Made by a program: the position numbers and the translations under genes. A stretch of DNA of 51,431 nucleotides, taken from NCBI GenBank assembly GCA_003669055.1, contig RAYB01000038.1, positions 1 through 51,431 on the forward strand, in the 5' to 3' direction. Within the stretch, counting starts at the first letter, position 1; every line of letters starts with the position of its first letter. This document shows, in pieces, positions 2,457 to 45,988 of this stretch. The notes under the pieces were generated by a model. It was not told the DNA's origin, ran no database searches, and saw nothing but the letters and a program-made list of their open reading frames with translations. The DNA comes from a bacterium 1XD21-70 (GTDB lineage: Bacteria > Bacillota > Clostridia > Lachnospirales > Lachnospiraceae).

Positions 2457-2693
2457 GGGCAAAACCCCCTGCGGGCGGAAGCCATGTCCTGGCTGGGTTG
2501 CGGTTTCGGGATCTAAGAATTCCTAAAATCTCCGGATTTCGCATGAGGCGAAAACGAAAACGCAGAAACTCGCTGCGCTCAGACAGTCTGCCGTTTTCGT
2601 TTCCATGCATAATCCGGAGGCTTAAGGAATTCTAATATCCCTGCAAATGCAGCCCAGCCAGGACATGGCTCCCGCCCGCAGGGGGTTTTGCCC
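2457..2693. repeat. 237-bp near-palindromic intergenic element, copy A
   Basis: The outer arms, 2457-2501 and 2649-2693, are 45 bases long and complementary except at two positions. Inner arms are partly complementary (AGAATTCC/GGAATTCT blocks, CTCCGGAT/ATCCGGAG). A 22-base central loop core occupies 2566-2587, starting AAACTCGCTG and ending TCAGACAGT. A second copy with the same layout and almost the same core lies at 11420-11657. The outer arm sequence here (GC-rich, containing CCCCCTGCGGGCGG) is different from that in copy B, yet it is self-complementary. The element sits between the padR promoter and the 3' end of the symporter gene. No T-run follows either end, so it is not a simple terminator. 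I do not recognise it as a named repeat. Confidence 0.9.
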
Positions 2694-2774: not shown

Positions 2775-4307
2775 TTATTTTTGGATGGATTCGTATTCCT
2801 CCTGGATCTCTTTTGACGGCTCTTTTGTCAGGAGGGATACGATGATGATGGCGGCGCAGGCGGCCAGGAAGGCGGGAAGGAGTTCGTATATGTTCCAGGC
2901 TCCGCCCATGGGGCGTACCAGGTATTTCCACACGAATACCATGATACCGCCGGTAAGCATGCCTGCCAGGGCGCCGTAAAGGTTGCTCCGCTTCCAGAAG
3001 AGGGCAGCCAGCATTACCGGGCCGAAGGCGGCTCCGAAACCCGCCCAGGCAAAGGATACAATATAGAAGACGGAACTGTCAGGGTTCCAGGCCAGTGCCA
3101 GGCTGACAAGGGCAATCGCGGCAATGGTCAGGCGTGCTGCCAGCATGGAAGCGCGTTCGCTGAGTTTCACTTTCAAAAAATCCTGCAACAAGTTCTGCGA
3201 GACGCCGGAGGCCGCGGTCAGCAGCTGGGAATCCGCCGTGGACATGGTGCAGGCCAGGATCCCGGCCAGGACAACGCCTGCAACTACGGAAGCGGCAAAA
3301 CCGGATTCCCCGAGAAGCCCTGACAGGCGGATGATCACGGTCTCGGATTCTGCGCTGGAGGAGAATACCGGTATCTTCCCGGCAACCGAAGCCCCATAGC
3401 CGATAATCCCAATCAGTATCGCCACGAACATGGAAACCACAACCCACACGGAAGCAATCCGCCGGGAGAGCGCCAGTTCTTTCTCATCGCGCACCGCCAT
3501 GAAACGGAGCAGGATGTGCGGCATGCCGAAGTACCCTAACCCCCAGGCGCACATGGACAGCATGTTTAACGTTCCATAGGGAACGGCTGTGCCGGACGTG
3601 CGGTCATGAAGGTATGACATGCTTAAATAGCCATCCAGGGAACGGGCATTTTCCATCACGGCCTGCCAGCCTCCCGCCACATGTACCCCAAAAAACACGA
3701 TCACTGCTAAGGCAACCGTCATCACGATGCTCTGGATTAAGTCTGTCGTGGACACTGCCAGAAAACCGCCCAGCACGGTATAGCCCACGATTACCAAAGC
3801 GCCCAGCACCATGGCTACGTGGTAATCCACATGGAAAAGGCTAAAGAACAGGGTTCCTACCGCCTTAAACCCGGACGCCGTATAGGGGATGAAAAAGACC
3901 AGGATGATAATTGCCGCAATGCACATCAGGATATTTTTCCCGTCCCGGTAACGCCTAGAAAAGAAGTCCGGGATCGTGATCGCCCCGCACGCTGCCGAGT
4001 AACGGCGCAGGCGTTTTGCCACAATCAGCCAGTTTAAGTAGGTTCCTGCCGCCAGCCCAATCGCTGTCCAGCCTGCGTCTGCAATCCCGGAGAGGTAAGC
4101 CACTCCGGGCAGCCCCATCAATAGCCAGCTGCTCATGTCCGAGGCCTCCGCGCTCATAGCCGCTACCAGCGGGCCAAGCCCCCTGCCTCCCAGGTAAAAC
4201 CCTTCTGCCGAACGGTCATTCCCCCTGCTAAAATAGTACCCGATATAGACCATCAATATCAGATATGCCCCAATGGCAAATAAAATCCCCATCTGTCCTG
4301 TATTCAT
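2775..4307 (-). CDS. putP: Sodium/proline symporter
   Basis: This 510-residue protein belongs to the sodium:solute symporter (SSS) family and imports proline with Na+. It has about 13 membrane helices. The PutP-type N-terminus reads YFLGGRGLGP-like (FYLGGRGLGPLVAAMSAEAS), followed by DMSSWLLMGLPG and later the STADSQLLTAASGVSQNL segment that contributes to the sodium site. Length and motif order match PutP throughout, with no break. It is transcribed alone from a promoter at 4396-4424, with GGAGGG a few bases before the ATG. No other proline-catabolic gene is adjacent, so the role may be osmoprotection or amino-acid uptake. Another SSS amino-acid transporter is possible, but PutP is the closest match. 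Confidence 0.9.
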   Translation of the reverse strand: MNTGQMGILFAIGAYLILMVYIGYYFSRGNDRSAEGFYLGGRGLGPLVAAMSAEASDMSSWLLMGLPGVAYLSGIADAGWTAIGLAAGTYLNWLIVAKRLRRYSAACGAITIPDFFSRRYRDGKNILMCIAAIIILVFFIPYTASGFKAVGTLFFSLFHVDYHVAMVLGALVIVGYTVLGGFLAVSTTDLIQSIVMTVALAVIVFFGVHVAGGWQAVMENARSLDGYLSMSYLHDRTSGTAVPYGTLNMLSMCAWGLGYFGMPHILLRFMAVRDEKELALSRRIASVWVVVSMFVAILIGIIGYGASVAGKIPVFSSSAESETVIIRLSGLLGESGFAASVVAGVVLAGILACTMSTADSQLLTAASGVSQNLLQDFLKVKLSERASMLAARLTIAAIALVSLALAWNPDSSVFYIVSFAWAGFGAAFGPVMLAALFWKRSNLYGALAGMLTGGIMVFVWKYLVRPMGGAWNIYELLPAFLAACAAIIIVSLLTKEPSKEIQEEYESIQK

Positions 4308-10762: not shown

Positions 10763-11407
10763 ATGAAAATACTCCTGACTGCTTTTGACCCCTTCGGGGG
10801 TGACTCCATCAATCCGGCACTGGAATCTGTCAAGCTGGTTCCTGGCCGGATGGATGATATCCAGGTCATCAAGCTGGAAGTCCCTACCGTGTTCGGGAAG
10901 TCTGTTGACACGGTCTGCGCCGCGATAAAAAAGGAGCAGCCGGACGCTGTCCTTTGCATCGGCCAGGCGGGCGGGCGCTATGGCCTGACCCCGGAGCGGG
11001 TTGCGATCAATGTGGATGATGCACGGATTGAGGACAATGAGGGCAACCAGCCCATCGACCGGCCGATCCGCGCAGACGGCGCCCCCGCCTACTTTTCCAC
11101 ACTCCCGGTCAAGGCCATGGTGCAGAAGATCCGCGCCGCGGGGATCCCGGCCAGCCTATCCAATTCTGCGGGGACTTTTGTGTGCAACCATTTGATGTAT
11201 GGGGTGTTATATACCCTGGCCAAGCACTATCCCCATATCCGCGGCGGCTTTATGCATGTCCCGTATACTCCCAGGCAGGTAGCCGGCCGGACGGAACCGG
11301 CGCCCTGCCTGGGGATAAAGGATATTGCGGCTGGAATCGAGGCGGCAATATGGGCAATTGCAGAACATGAGAGGGATATCGTGGCTGCCGAAGGGGCGAT
11401 TCATTAA
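10763..11407 (+). CDS. pcp: Pyroglutamyl-peptidase I
   Basis: This 214-residue cysteine peptidase (family C15) removes N-terminal pyroglutamate from peptides in the cytosol. The catalytic triad is visible: E78 in [11 protein letters not shown]141 in [13 protein letters not shown], and H165 in [10 protein letters not shown]. Length is the family standard. The ATG lies 3 bases after the carB stop, so it is almost certainly co-transcribed and translated by re-initiation or coupling; no separate promoter is visible. Metabolic linkage to carB is not obvious. The palindromic element B begins 12 bases after its stop. Confidence 0.95.
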
Positions 11408-11419
11408 ATGGGGGGGTAC

Positions 11420-11657
11420 GCCTAGGGGAGGGGGAAGGAGGGCAGCGCCATATCGGCCTGCTTTGCGGTCCGGGATTTAAGGATTTCTAAAATATCCAGA
11501 TTTTGCAAAAAGCGAAACGAAAATGCATAAACTCGCTGTGTTCAGACAGTATGCATTTTCGTTTCAAAGCAAATTCTGGAGATTTAAGAACTCCTAAAAT
11601 CCCTTCCAATGCAAAGCAGGCCGATATGGCGCTGCCCTCCTTCCCCCTCCCCTAGGC
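11420..11657. repeat. 238-bp near-palindromic intergenic element, copy B
   Basis: The outer arms, 11420-11466 and 11611-11657, are perfectly complementary over 47 bases. Inner arms are partly complementary (CCAGATTTTGC/GCAAATTCTGG, CGAAAATGCAT/ATGCATTTTCG). The 22-base central core at 11529-11550 differs from that of copy A only at two C-to-T positions. The distance from arm end to core is nearly the same as in copy A. The arm sequence is different, with a purine run GGGGAGGGGGAAGGAGGG here. It lies between the convergent pcp and UDP-glucose dehydrogenase genes. As in copy A, CCTGGCT and a GGATC..ATAATGG block follow on the right, so the unit may extend to about 11691. Confidence 0.9.
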
Positions 11658-11733: not shown

Positions 11734-13008
11734 TTAGTCTCGTTTGAATATGTCGCGGGTGTAGACTTTGTCTATTACGTCTTCTAGGTTGTGGTCATAG
11801 CGGTTGGCTATGATGGCATTGCTTATTTTTTTGAATTCTTCCAAGTCTCCGATTACTTTGCTGCCGAAGAAGGTGCTGCCTGCCTCTAAGGTCGGTTCGT
11901 ATATGACTACGGCGGCGCCTTTGGCCTTGACTCGTTTCATTACCCCTTGGATGGAACTCTGGCGGAAGTTGTCGGAGTTGCTTTTCATGGTTAGGCGGTA
12001 TACACCGATTATGCAGCTTTTTTCATCGGTTGGGCGGTAGTCGCCGCGGTTGTAGTAATCGTAATACCCTGCCATCTTTAGTACGCGGTCGGCAATAAAG
12101 TCTTTGCGGGTGCGGTTGCTTTCTACAATCGCGGACATCATGTTTTGAGGTACGTCCGTGTAGTTTGCCAGAAGCTGTTTGGTGTCCTTAGGCAGGCAGT
12201 AACCGCCGTAGCCAAAGGAGGGGTTGTTGTAAAAGGTTCCGATACGGGGATCCAGACATACCCCTTCGATGATTTTTTTGGTGTCCAAGCCTTTCATCTC
12301 GGCGTAGGTGTCCAGTTCGTTAAAATAGGATACCCGCAGGGCTAAGTAGGTGTTGGCAAACAGCTTGACTGCCTCTGCCTCCGTAAATCCCATAAAGAGG
12401 GTGTCGATCTCTTCTTTGAGGGCGCTTTCCTGGAGAAGGGCGGCAAATGTGTGGGCTGCCTGTACCAGGCCCTCGTCTTCTAAGTCGGTTCCTACGATGA
12501 TCCGTGAGGGGTACAAGTTGTCGTAGAGCGCCTTGGACTCGCGCAAAAACTCGGGGCTGAACAGGATGTTCTTGGTGTTGAACCGCTTCCTGGCTGACTC
12601 TGTGTAGCCGACCGGGATTGTGGATTTGATCACGATCACGGCCTGTGGGTTGGCTTCTTGCACCAGGCTGATCACAGCCTCCACGGCAGAAGTGTCAAAG
12701 TGCTGTGTCGTGGAATCGTAGTTGGTCGGTGCGGCAACCACCACGAAATCGGCATTTTGGTAGGCCATCCCGCCGTCCATGGTTGCCACAAGATCCAAGT
12801 CTTTTTCTGCCAAATATTTCTCAATATACTCGTCCCGGATCGGGGATTGCCTTCTGTTGATCATATCCACCTTTTCCGGAAGGATATCCACGGCATAGAC
12901 CTTATGGCGCTGGGACAGCAGTACCGCGATGGAAAGGCCGACATAGCCGGTTCCCGCCACAGCTATGGTCAGCTGGTCTGTTGGTTTCTTTATCACTGGT
13001 TCTGTCAT
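11734..13008 (-). CDS. ugd: UDP-glucose 6-dehydrogenase family protein
   Basis: This 424-residue NAD-dependent enzyme oxidises a UDP-hexose (most likely UDP-glucose) to the uronic acid for capsule or exopolysaccharide. The N-terminal Rossmann motif is G19-T-G21-Y-V-G24. The central helical domain carries the catalytic cysteine in [12 protein letters not shown] (about residue 260). The C-terminal UDP-binding domain follows, with [15 protein letters not shown]. The order and length fit the UDP-glucose/GDP-mannose dehydrogenase family and the protein appears complete. A UDP-N-acetylmannosamine or similar specificity cannot be excluded from sequence. It is a single gene; GGAG precedes the ATG, and a palindrome fills its promoter spacer. 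Confidence 0.88.
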
Positions 13009-15646: not shown

Positions 15647-15694
15647 CACTGAAAAAGTCTGATTCTTTTTTCAAAGAATCAGACTTTTTCAGTG
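15647..15694. terminator. Strong intrinsic terminator hairpin
   Basis: Perfect 22-base arms (15647-15668 and 15673-15694) flank a 4-base loop about 100 bases after the M56 gene. A T-run is part of the right arm (GACTTTTTCAG), and an A-run sits in the left arm, so it could stop transcription from both sides. Confidence 0.8.
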
Positions 15695-20299: not shown

Positions 20300-20528
20300 A
20301 ATATGTTTTCCTCTCTTTCTGAAATTCCGTTACAAAAACCGTAAAATTGCTTACATTCATTTTGCACACTTCAATTTACTAAAGTGCTTGAAACCGTTGA
20401 TTTTACTCAATGTCATTAACTTAAGGAATTTTTTACATTTAAAATTGTAAAAGGTTCCTTTTTTCTGTATTTTTACTGTATAATAGAAGCAGATAACTGA
20501 TGTTTTTCTTTTAAAGGCAGGTGATTTT

Positions 20529-21399
20529 ATGAAAGACTCTCAAAAACGTACCTGTTGTGATATCAGTTTGATCCATCAGGATGAATTCCATGATTTCTGC
20601 AGAAATGGGAATCCGTCCTCTTTTATAAGGAACAGAAAAATGCCGCTGAAGGATCTTATGTTCACCATGACCAACCGGAGGGGGATTACTTTGAGCCTGG
20701 AACTACGAAATTATATGAAGACCGCACATCCGGGAATGGAAATATCAAAGCCCGGCTATCTGAAGCAGCGCATGGAGCTGAACCCACTGGCTTTTTATGA
20801 GTTTTACCGCCATCATAACAGGAACTTTTACGCGGAACCCGGATTCTCTACCTTCCACGGATATCTGGTCCTTGCCGCGGACGGCTCAGGGATCAATATC
20901 CCTACTACGAAGGAGACCCTGGAAGAATTCGGGACATCCCACAAATCTGCCACCGGAACCCTTTGGCTGCCAGCAGATAGCCGAACTGTACCATATGAGA
21001 TGGGGGATTGAAACGGCATATGAGACACTCAAAGACCGCCTGCAGATAGAGAATTTTACAGGGACCAAGCCGATCCTGCTGCAGGATATATATAGCACAA
21101 TCTATATCAGCAACCTTGCGGAGGACATCATCCGTGATGCCGAGGCGGAATTGGACGAAAAAGAAAGCCACCGGAAACATAAGATGATGATAAACCGGAC
21201 ATTGAGCATTGGGATACTGAAAAATGACCTGATCTATATCCTGTTGGAAACGGACGCGCGGAAACAGGATGAACTGTTCCAGCAGATTTATGAGGACATC
21301 AGCAAGAATCTGGTTCCAATAAGACCAGACCGCCATTACCACCGGACAAAGGGGCAGCTTGCGGGGAAATATTCAAATACGCATAAAAGAGCTTATTGA
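20529..21399 (+). pseudogene. IS4-family transposase with internal deletion and frameshift
   Basis: The first frame (20529-21011) has the N-terminal domain, ending in VLAADGSGINIPTTKE with the first catalytic aspartate, then GTSHKSATG. The second frame (through 21399) has the C-terminal part, IETAYETLKDRLQIENFTG, which carries the Y-x2-K/R-x3-E-x6-K signature, and a helical tail. The section normally in between, with the second catalytic aspartate, is missing, and the two parts lie in different frames. The protein cannot be an active transposase. A ribosome binding site (AGGCAGGTG) precedes the first ATG. Confidence 0.8.
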
Positions 21400-21482
21400 G
21401 CAGAAAAGTTATAGAACATGAGCACGTCCTGAATGATAAATATAGTAGAATGGTATCAAATATTAGAATTAATTTTCCAAAA

Positions 21483-21535
21483 CAATACCGGATGTCCTTT
21501 ACCCCCTGAATGGGGGTAAAGGACATCCGGTATTG
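21483..21535 (+). terminator. Terminator at the end of the IS element
   Basis: Perfect 24-base arms (21483-21506 and 21512-21535) flank a 5-base loop (TGAAT) and are followed by CTTTTTCTT. It lies between the transposase end and the right inverted repeat of the IS. Confidence 0.85.
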
Positions 21536-21610
21536 CTTTTTCTTAAGTTAATGACATTGTGAAAATACTGGACTTTCAAGGGTTTCACTAATTTCATTAT
21601 TCTTCTTGTA

Positions 21611-39949: not shown

Positions 39950-39958
39950 GCCCTCACT

Positions 39959-40000
39959 TCCTTTCGTGCTACTATTATACATGATTGTAGCACGAAAGGA
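39959..40000 (-). promoter_or_regulatory. abiE promoter with perfect inverted-repeat operator
   Basis: The arms TCCTTTCGTGCTAC (39959-39972) and its complement (39987-40000) are 14 bases each and separated by 14 bases. A minus-strand TATAAT (39974-39979) lies between them. Known AbiEi repressors bind paired inverted repeats at this position, so negative autoregulation is expected. Confidence 0.8.
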
Positions 40001-40081
40001 AATAGCGTCAAAAAGAAAAAGCGGAGGAAGGCGCGGCGAAGAACGCCGTTCCTCCCTCCGCAGATGGGGCAAGCTGTCCGG

Positions 40082-45588: not shown

Positions 45589-45988
45589 TTACTCACATCT
45601 CCTAAAGTTCAGTCCTTCCCACCATGTTTGCAACCACAATGGTACTATGACCTCTGCTGACTTCTCGTCATTCGTTGTTACTACAAGTTTCATACTCCGT
45701 TTCCACTTGCTGACGAGACCTCCCTAGGTACCACACGTTTCTTTCTCTCCATCTATCTGCCACATTTACCACAGTTAATTCCGAGTAGTTATTGGACTTC
45801 AGTTTGTGCGGCAACCTTATCCTTAACTGTAGCCTTATGTGATTTCTGTTCGTCAGACCGGAGATTTGCCTCCACCTTCCTTCGGATTCCACCTCACGAT
45901 GGACACCCTTGGTCTTGGCTGTATCCTTCCCACTACTAGGGCGGATTGGGGACTTTCACCCATTAGAAACGTGCGCCGCTAGGCACAC
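45190..45988 (-). mobile_element. Group II intron, 5' half only
   Basis: The 5' end is most likely GTGTGCC at 45988 (minus strand), matching the GUGYG start of group II introns. The GTGAAAGTCCC segment and several long stems follow before the maturase ATG at 45588. The 3' half with domains V and VI is lost. It sits immediately after a transcription terminator, the usual insertion site of bacterial class C introns. The exact right junction with the helicase is near 45190. Confidence 0.75.

Follow-up and report, generated by a model that had tools for sequence, protein, structure and literature searches.

Integron attC sites and the ends of IS200/IS605 elements are recognised as folded single-stranded DNA, with extrahelical bases setting the strand, and MITE copies normally share their ends. 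Palindromes of the REP/RAYT type are 20 to 40 bp long, carry a GTAG or CGTC tag, and have stems of 5 to 13 bp (PMC3733652), and the TMECO repeat, an intrastrand triplex motif of the form CCCTCNCCC-N3-6-GGGNGAGGG-N3-GGGNGAGGG, is G/C-rich, has three tracts, and spans about 33 to 37 nt (PMC4666352), as given in the accessible parts of both sources. At the level of mutation, excerpts of two further papers describe template switching that homogenises the arms of inverted repeats (PMC8604942, PMC8794818). The locus described here, in a genome of the family Lachnospiraceae, holds two copies of a palindromic element for which a sequence-only reading knew of no named repeat, and indeed none that fits was found in Rfam or in the open-access literature. 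No Rfam 15 family matched the element at gathering score, either in the window (the whole analysed stretch of 51,431 nt) or in 16 apex-bearing loci, the only hits being pieces of group II introns, tRNA, and rRNA, and no relevant name or description of the element appeared in open-access papers, which formed the scope of our search. Two of the Rfam hits, both to group II intron domains (RF02001 and RF01998), lie on the minus strand of the window at 45612-45903.

Copy 1 (2457-2693, 237 nt) and copy 2 (11420-11657, 238 nt), both given on the plus strand as are all their parts, are inverted repeats of near-equal length, as had been claimed and as arm positions and complementarity confirm. The arms of copy 1 (2457-2510/2640-2693) are 89% complementary over 54 nt and those of copy 2 (11420-11466/11611-11657) 100% over 47 nt; by eye, the outer arms look unrelated between the two copies, much as the sequence-only reading had described them. 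The outer arms of copy 1 lack the GCC...GGC ends usual in the family, and GGGGGGGTAC stands before copy 2. An asymmetric conserved core occupies 2504-2647 in copy 1 (135.9 bits with covariance model R1, E = 7e-31 within the window) and 11468-11609 in copy 2 (153 bits); R1 was made from 41 family cores of the own and related genomes, both window cores among them. At the tip of the core is a 22-nt apex, located at 2566-2587 in copy 1 (AAACTCGCTGCGCTCAGACAGT, a 22-mer that recurs identically in many phyla) and at 11529-11550 in copy 2, and the two apices differ only at the two C/T positions already noticed. The DNA fold of copy 2 (−108.5 kcal/mol, shuffle z −20.9) and the RNA fold of copy 1 (−169.5, shuffle z −17.7) are far beyond those of shuffled sequences, and therefore neither hairpin is due to chance. 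Near-perfect inverted repeats with arms of 21 to 28 nt and short loops are also present elsewhere in the window, at 21479-21539, 15647-15694, and 39958-40001.

The element had been placed at gene ends, which is fully true of copy 2, located between the convergent ORFs 10763-11407 (+) and 11734-13008 (−), and true of one side of copy 1, whose neighbours are the 3′ end of ORF 2775-4307 (−) and the 5′ end of ORF 2056-2376 (−), which makes one of its flanks an upstream region. Gene orientation was also compared across the own genome, where 16 of 21 rows have ORFs on both sides, 5 of them convergent, 8 tandem, and 3 divergent (rough ORF calls); a placement at gene ends thus captures these mixed surroundings only in part. 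A T-run 3′ of the right arm is absent after both 2693 and 11657 by eye, in agreement with the sequence-only reading. Runs of 6 to 12 G at the arm base were seen by eye in 9 of 22 own-genome rows (for example, at 11410-11419 of the window and in L007, L010, and L015); they stand beside purine-rich arms, and triplex formation may be possible there.

The two copies belong to a larger family. The covariance model placed members at at least 23 distinct sites in the own genome (all 26 scored candidates matched, three of them being the other strand of another), and a search at the DNA level returned 22 hits, which include fragments and the other strand of the query. Copies are about 190 to 320 nt long and form a long hairpin with the conserved asymmetric core and the 22-nt apex. 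Read from the left base, a typical copy consists of GTAC, GCC, the first of the two variable arms, about 143 nt of conserved core that include the apex, the partner arm, GGC, and TG. By eye, GTAC stands at the left arm base in 11 of 22 own-genome rows, and the REP tag GTAG was not seen at the arm base in any of the 22. In 18 own copies, the arms are on average 0.91 identical within a copy (minimum, 0.56), and the left arms of different copies have an identity of 0.57 compared to 0.47 after shuffling. Thus, the further copies, which are found in relatives as well and have largely complementary arms, bear out the idea of a palindromic family with a fixed layout whose arms vary from copy to copy and yet remain self-complementary.

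The distribution of the element is patchy and bursty. Allowing for one mismatch at most, the loop pattern occurs in 8 genomes of a genus set of 24 that includes the own genome (20 matches in the own genome G000, 79 in G017, 139 in G022, and 1 to 4 in five others), and is absent from the remaining 16; the same pattern read backward as a control gave 4 matches in the 24 genomes, all in G022. With one genome per genus of the family, the covariance model matched 17 of 120, and in a sample of 398 genomes of the phylum, the loop pattern was present in 14 (1 match for the backward control), the own genome being counted in both cases. Beyond the phylum, at least 119 stretches in 257 billion bases contain the apex 22-mer exactly, searched with a single two-way position; simple arithmetic predicts about 0.06 chance occurrences. 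Among the matches listed are records of Ralstonia, Variovorax, Acidovorax, Pasteurellaceae, Selenomonas, Bacteroides, Flavobacterium, Geobacter, Desulfatitalea, Nitrospirae, and a Thermotoga bin; many apex-bearing records are metagenome bins, and therefore single outliers may be contamination. Mobile replicons gave next to nothing: neither the Ralstonia element used as a query nor the core from the window matched any of 72,556 plasmid records, the exact 21-mer had no match in viral contigs, and phages gave a single weak match of 38 bases (E = 0.6). A Bacteroides element used as the query found none in E. coli.

Closer inspection of the apex-bearing stretches revealed that the apex is fixed, whereas the stem below it is free but paired. 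Of the exact 22-mers, 118 have 40 nt or more of sequence to either side, and they represent 87 distinct apical stems, of which 70 pair at 7 or 8 of 8 positions and 6 at 4 or fewer; when the right sides were swapped between elements, 7 or 8 of 8 pairs were reached in only 2.3%. A TTAACG-like motif on the 3′ side (38/87) and a GCTAA-like motif on the 5′ side (24/87, both by simple search) are, by these counts, not universal. In Ralstonia and Bacteroides, several hairpins are arranged as inverted pairs inside larger mirrored frames, and in six loci of these groups (L125, L132, L137, L151, L164, and L143), the frames begin with tracts like CTTTCTTTG...CAAAGAAAG, which look triplex-like by eye. Identical or similar apices also sit on different stems within a single bacterial family, as in L030, L036, L041, and L046 of G033 and, for a second family, in L033, L183, and L205 of G022; hence, several element families share the module. 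Smaller hairpin-like insertions were seen in the cores of L029, L181, L190, L195, and L197.

Within the 49 copies of G022, apex position 10 is free (C14, T19, G10, A6), position 17 is G in 40 and A in 9, and every remaining position is constant in at least 47. The strand opposite the apex contains GCGNAGC, in which N is position 10, the most variable of the apex. Mini-hairpins of the GCGNAGC type, which have GNA loops, resist heat and nucleases unusually well according to an excerpt of PMC4686876. A nearest-neighbour DNA energy model of the isolated apex did not predict a stable GNA mini-hairpin, and the link, drawn from the motif, is suggestive only; one free position may have other causes. 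The asymmetry of the core, with its one-base bulges and unequal internal loops, and the apex are mostly kept in the same G022 copies.

How the arms change was followed in G022, using 46 of its 49 copies (L061, L134, and L206 were left out since an arm fell beyond the length window). Left and right arms of the same copy differ in 61 of 1978 columns (3.1%), whereas between copies left arms differ from left arms at 30.3% and from right arms at 30.5%. Arm lengths are equal in 44 of the 46 copies, and the internal arm gaps, counted by column, make up 10 cells in 5 copies, all paired and none unpaired. Thirty-six nearest-neighbour pairs with 234 core differences yielded 139 paired arm changes, 61 single changes, and 8 others; the paired changes rise with core distance from 4.8 to 16.1 per pair, and the single changes stay flat (mean, 3.6 in the closest bin and 1.7 to 2.7 beyond). 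An inner three-base marker occurs in several states; 28 of 46 copies have the same state on the left and on the right (10.7 on average and 21 at most under permutation), and 18 are mixed, which fits arms that occasionally overwrite each other. In one copy, L222, 31 nt of the right core exactly complement the left core of the same copy and are bordered by normal sequence on either side; the tract differs from the sibling L223 at five positions, one of which is present in other copies too. L220, considered as a templated conversion as well, has a right half resembling the complement of the left half of another copy and looks like a chimera; it was not counted as evidence. In sum, both arms of each copy change in concert.

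It had been argued that compensated arms by themselves imply a selected fold. This argument is not supported, and the pattern in G022 rather resembles templated copying from arm to arm, for which excerpts of three papers describe a similar signature left by template switching between inverted-repeat arms (PMC8794818, PMC8604942, PMC7202029). Taken together, the mismatch of 3.1% within copies versus 30% between them, the paired gaps, the L222 tract, and outer arms without an excess of G-U lead us to read the arms as matched by copying of DNA. Many paired changes might in principle also result from rapid compensation if the population is very large. The 41 Ralstonia copies, with a left/right identity of 0.80 within copies and left/left and left/right identities of 0.77 and 0.70 between them, favour concerted arms there too, but only weakly, since fixed asymmetries are still included in these values. 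Such copying could also erase the asymmetry of the core, as it did in L222, and yet the asymmetry persists, which suggests selection on the core. Descent from a few intact masters could account for part of the asymmetry, but the core is probably kept by selection, perhaps as a recognition hairpin of single-stranded DNA.

Movement of the element is best seen in relatives. Terminal inverted repeats like CAATGTCAGTTAGTTAAG frame 24 copies at nearly fixed distances in G022, G017, and a few close relatives, and 9 of the 24 are flanked by direct repeats of 7 to 10 bp. In 200 shuffles, such repeats numbered 1.3 on average and never more than 5, from which we conclude that copies move in these genomes. 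A direct repeat of at least 7 bp is absent in the other 15, and the nine cases are not fully independent, since two of them (L026 and L184) carry one shared 9-mer and several targets themselves look repeat-like. The framing repeat of the G022 type has no match in the own genome with up to 2 mismatches, and movement of the element there is therefore inferred from dispersal; the own-genome copies probably moved by way of another frame or route. At the interval orthologous to the copy 1 site in G014, 88% identical beside it, both neighbour regions (PadR-like and symporter-like, names given by eye) were matched and the core is absent, and thus the core was gained or lost there. The same interval of G014 (L282) contains a perfect 25-bp hairpin with GCCATGG...CCATGGC ends that resemble family arm ends; perhaps it is a copy that lost its core.

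As for the mobiliser, a decayed insertion sequence at 20408-21559 of the window (plus strand), with terminal inverted repeats CAATGTCATTAACTTAAG and a split frame that matches DDE_Tnp_1, has ends similar to those framing hairpin copies in G022 and G017, and such an insertion sequence is a possible mobiliser type on the strength of this similarity. G000, G022, and G017 together have 10 matches to PF01609, G017 having none, and no PF01609 match in G022 is bounded by the hairpin-framing ends. The Y1 transposase family PF01797 is matched in 21 of 37 genomes (once in G000, three times in G022) and gave no match in the carriers G017 (91% complete), G014 (92%), and G005 (86%); mobilisation by Y1/RAYT as a general requirement was rejected on account of these three carriers. 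A shared neighbour gene was rejected too: in a Pfam scan of 148 of 209 chosen flanking ORFs, 176 families matched, the commonest of them was present in 5 of the 148, and no transposase was among the 25 commonest. An autonomous partner of the element did not emerge from these searches.

Could the fold be kept as RNA? A transcribed, structured non-coding RNA, its stem, bulges, and 22-nt loop maintained for a function such as stabilisation, processing, or protein binding, would be consistent with the very low folding energy and with paired variation that extends into the core, where 22 of 40 predicted pairs are changed on both sides. Selection on an RNA from the apex strand should leave an excess of G-U over A-C mismatches, and this signature is missing from the outer arms, in which 236 pooled elements have 59 G-U and 83 A-C on the apex strand (lean to A-C, p = 0.05); likewise, a hand count of the 40 consensus pairs gave 20 G-U and 30 A-C cells. 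In the mid-stem zones, A-C prevails over G-U on the apex strand (98 versus 41, p = 1.5e-6, and 79 versus 47, p = 0.006), and in the apical 12 nt G-U (26) are more numerous than A-C (14). The complementary strand of the mid-stem would carry more G-U than A-C, which speaks for the RNA, and the bias there could stem from a transcript of that strand or from fixed mismatch positions. A copy number of 0 to 139 inside one genus is unlike a single functional RNA gene, the left arms of different own copies are 0.57 identical as against 0.47 for shuffled ones, and no Rfam family corresponds to the element. We consider the RNA rather unlikely on balance. A further idea, that the element settles between genes as an insulator or as a terminator of transcription in both directions, would suit the convergent ORFs around copy 2 and those Ralstonia inverted pairs, several in number, that enclose a short extra hairpin (AAGGCCAACC...GGTTGGCCTT), some of them between ORFs called convergent; the missing T-run (by eye) and the mixed gene orientations around the own copies make it very unlikely.

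The mobility data raise the question of whether the element is anything more than a plain selfish MITE, in which the core would be conserved merely through recent copying from few masters and the apex would have no function. Terminal inverted repeats together with direct repeats that resemble target-site duplications, the pair of features that marks a MITE, are present in the congeners and close relatives (9 of the 24 framed copies have the direct repeats), the DDE insertion sequence has similar ends, two congeners show bursts, and sister copies inherit their arms. In the own genome, these terminal repeats had no match when up to 2 mismatches were allowed. Against the plain selfish MITE, one apex tops hairpins with unrelated stems, in different frames and in several phyla, and within one genome the cores stay asymmetric while the arms lose asymmetry, and we judge a purely selfish MITE to be unlikely.

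Our data point, with modest confidence, toward a dispersed mobile palindromic DNA element whose arms are matched by templated copying and whose core and apex are selected for recognition in trans. In our model, the element would be non-coding and, in some hosts, MITE-like, and would be built around a hairpin module with a 22-nt apex common to bacterial phyla. Templated copying from one arm to the other while DNA is replicated or repaired (quasipalindrome template switching) would keep the arms matched, and the arms could then drift together without selection on an RNA fold. Core and apex would be held by selection, most likely through a trans-acting factor that recognises the extruded or single-stranded hairpin. 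It is imaginable, though doubtful, that the module is a so far undescribed DNA signal across phyla, in which the apex, with a strand-specific GNA mini-hairpin, is read as single-stranded DNA by a recombinase or replication protein, on palindromes that match themselves by template copying, which would make the element a hairpin that repairs itself. If our model is correct, copying of DNA from one arm to the other can generate large numbers of paired arm changes, which are usually taken as proof that an RNA fold is under selection, and the family, with dozens of copies in some genomes, is a natural test bed for this process. The 22-nt apex on different stems across phyla, for which our searches yielded no partner protein, would point to a recognition system for which we found no description in Rfam or the open-access literature.

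The element has features of several known systems. With REP, BIME, and REPIN sequences, which go with RAYT (Y1) transposases, and with the GTAG and CGTC palindromic repeats, it shares dispersal as intergenic palindromes, often as inverted pairs and in many copies, and possible DNA hairpins, as far as the excerpt of PMC3733652 describes them; it differs in its length of about 190 to 320 nt and its conserved apex, and in that some carriers have no detected Y1 transposase. The lack of an evident gene product, the terminal inverted repeats in G022, G017, and near relatives, and the direct repeats at 9 of 24 copies are like those of a MITE, but the outer arms differ strongly among the copies of the own genome, and the apex module recurs in other frames and phyla. 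Repeated hairpin-like motifs, sometimes tandem inverted and with no assigned function, are known from TMECO as well (Holder 2015, PMC4666352), and by eye the Ralstonia and Bacteroides frames of the apex hairpin carry triplex-like tracts; a conserved 22-nt apex is, however, not part of the TMECO description in the accessible part of that paper. Compared to attC sites and IS200/IS605 ends, it is the apex that is conserved here and not the ends, and no TnpA link through PF01797 was found. Finally, homogenisation by template switching, as described in parts of PMC8794818, PMC8604942, and PMC7202029, would account for the paired multi-base changes and the perfect stems. It is a process of mutation rather than a family of elements, and in the present case it would operate on a dispersed family while leaving the conserved core unmatched.
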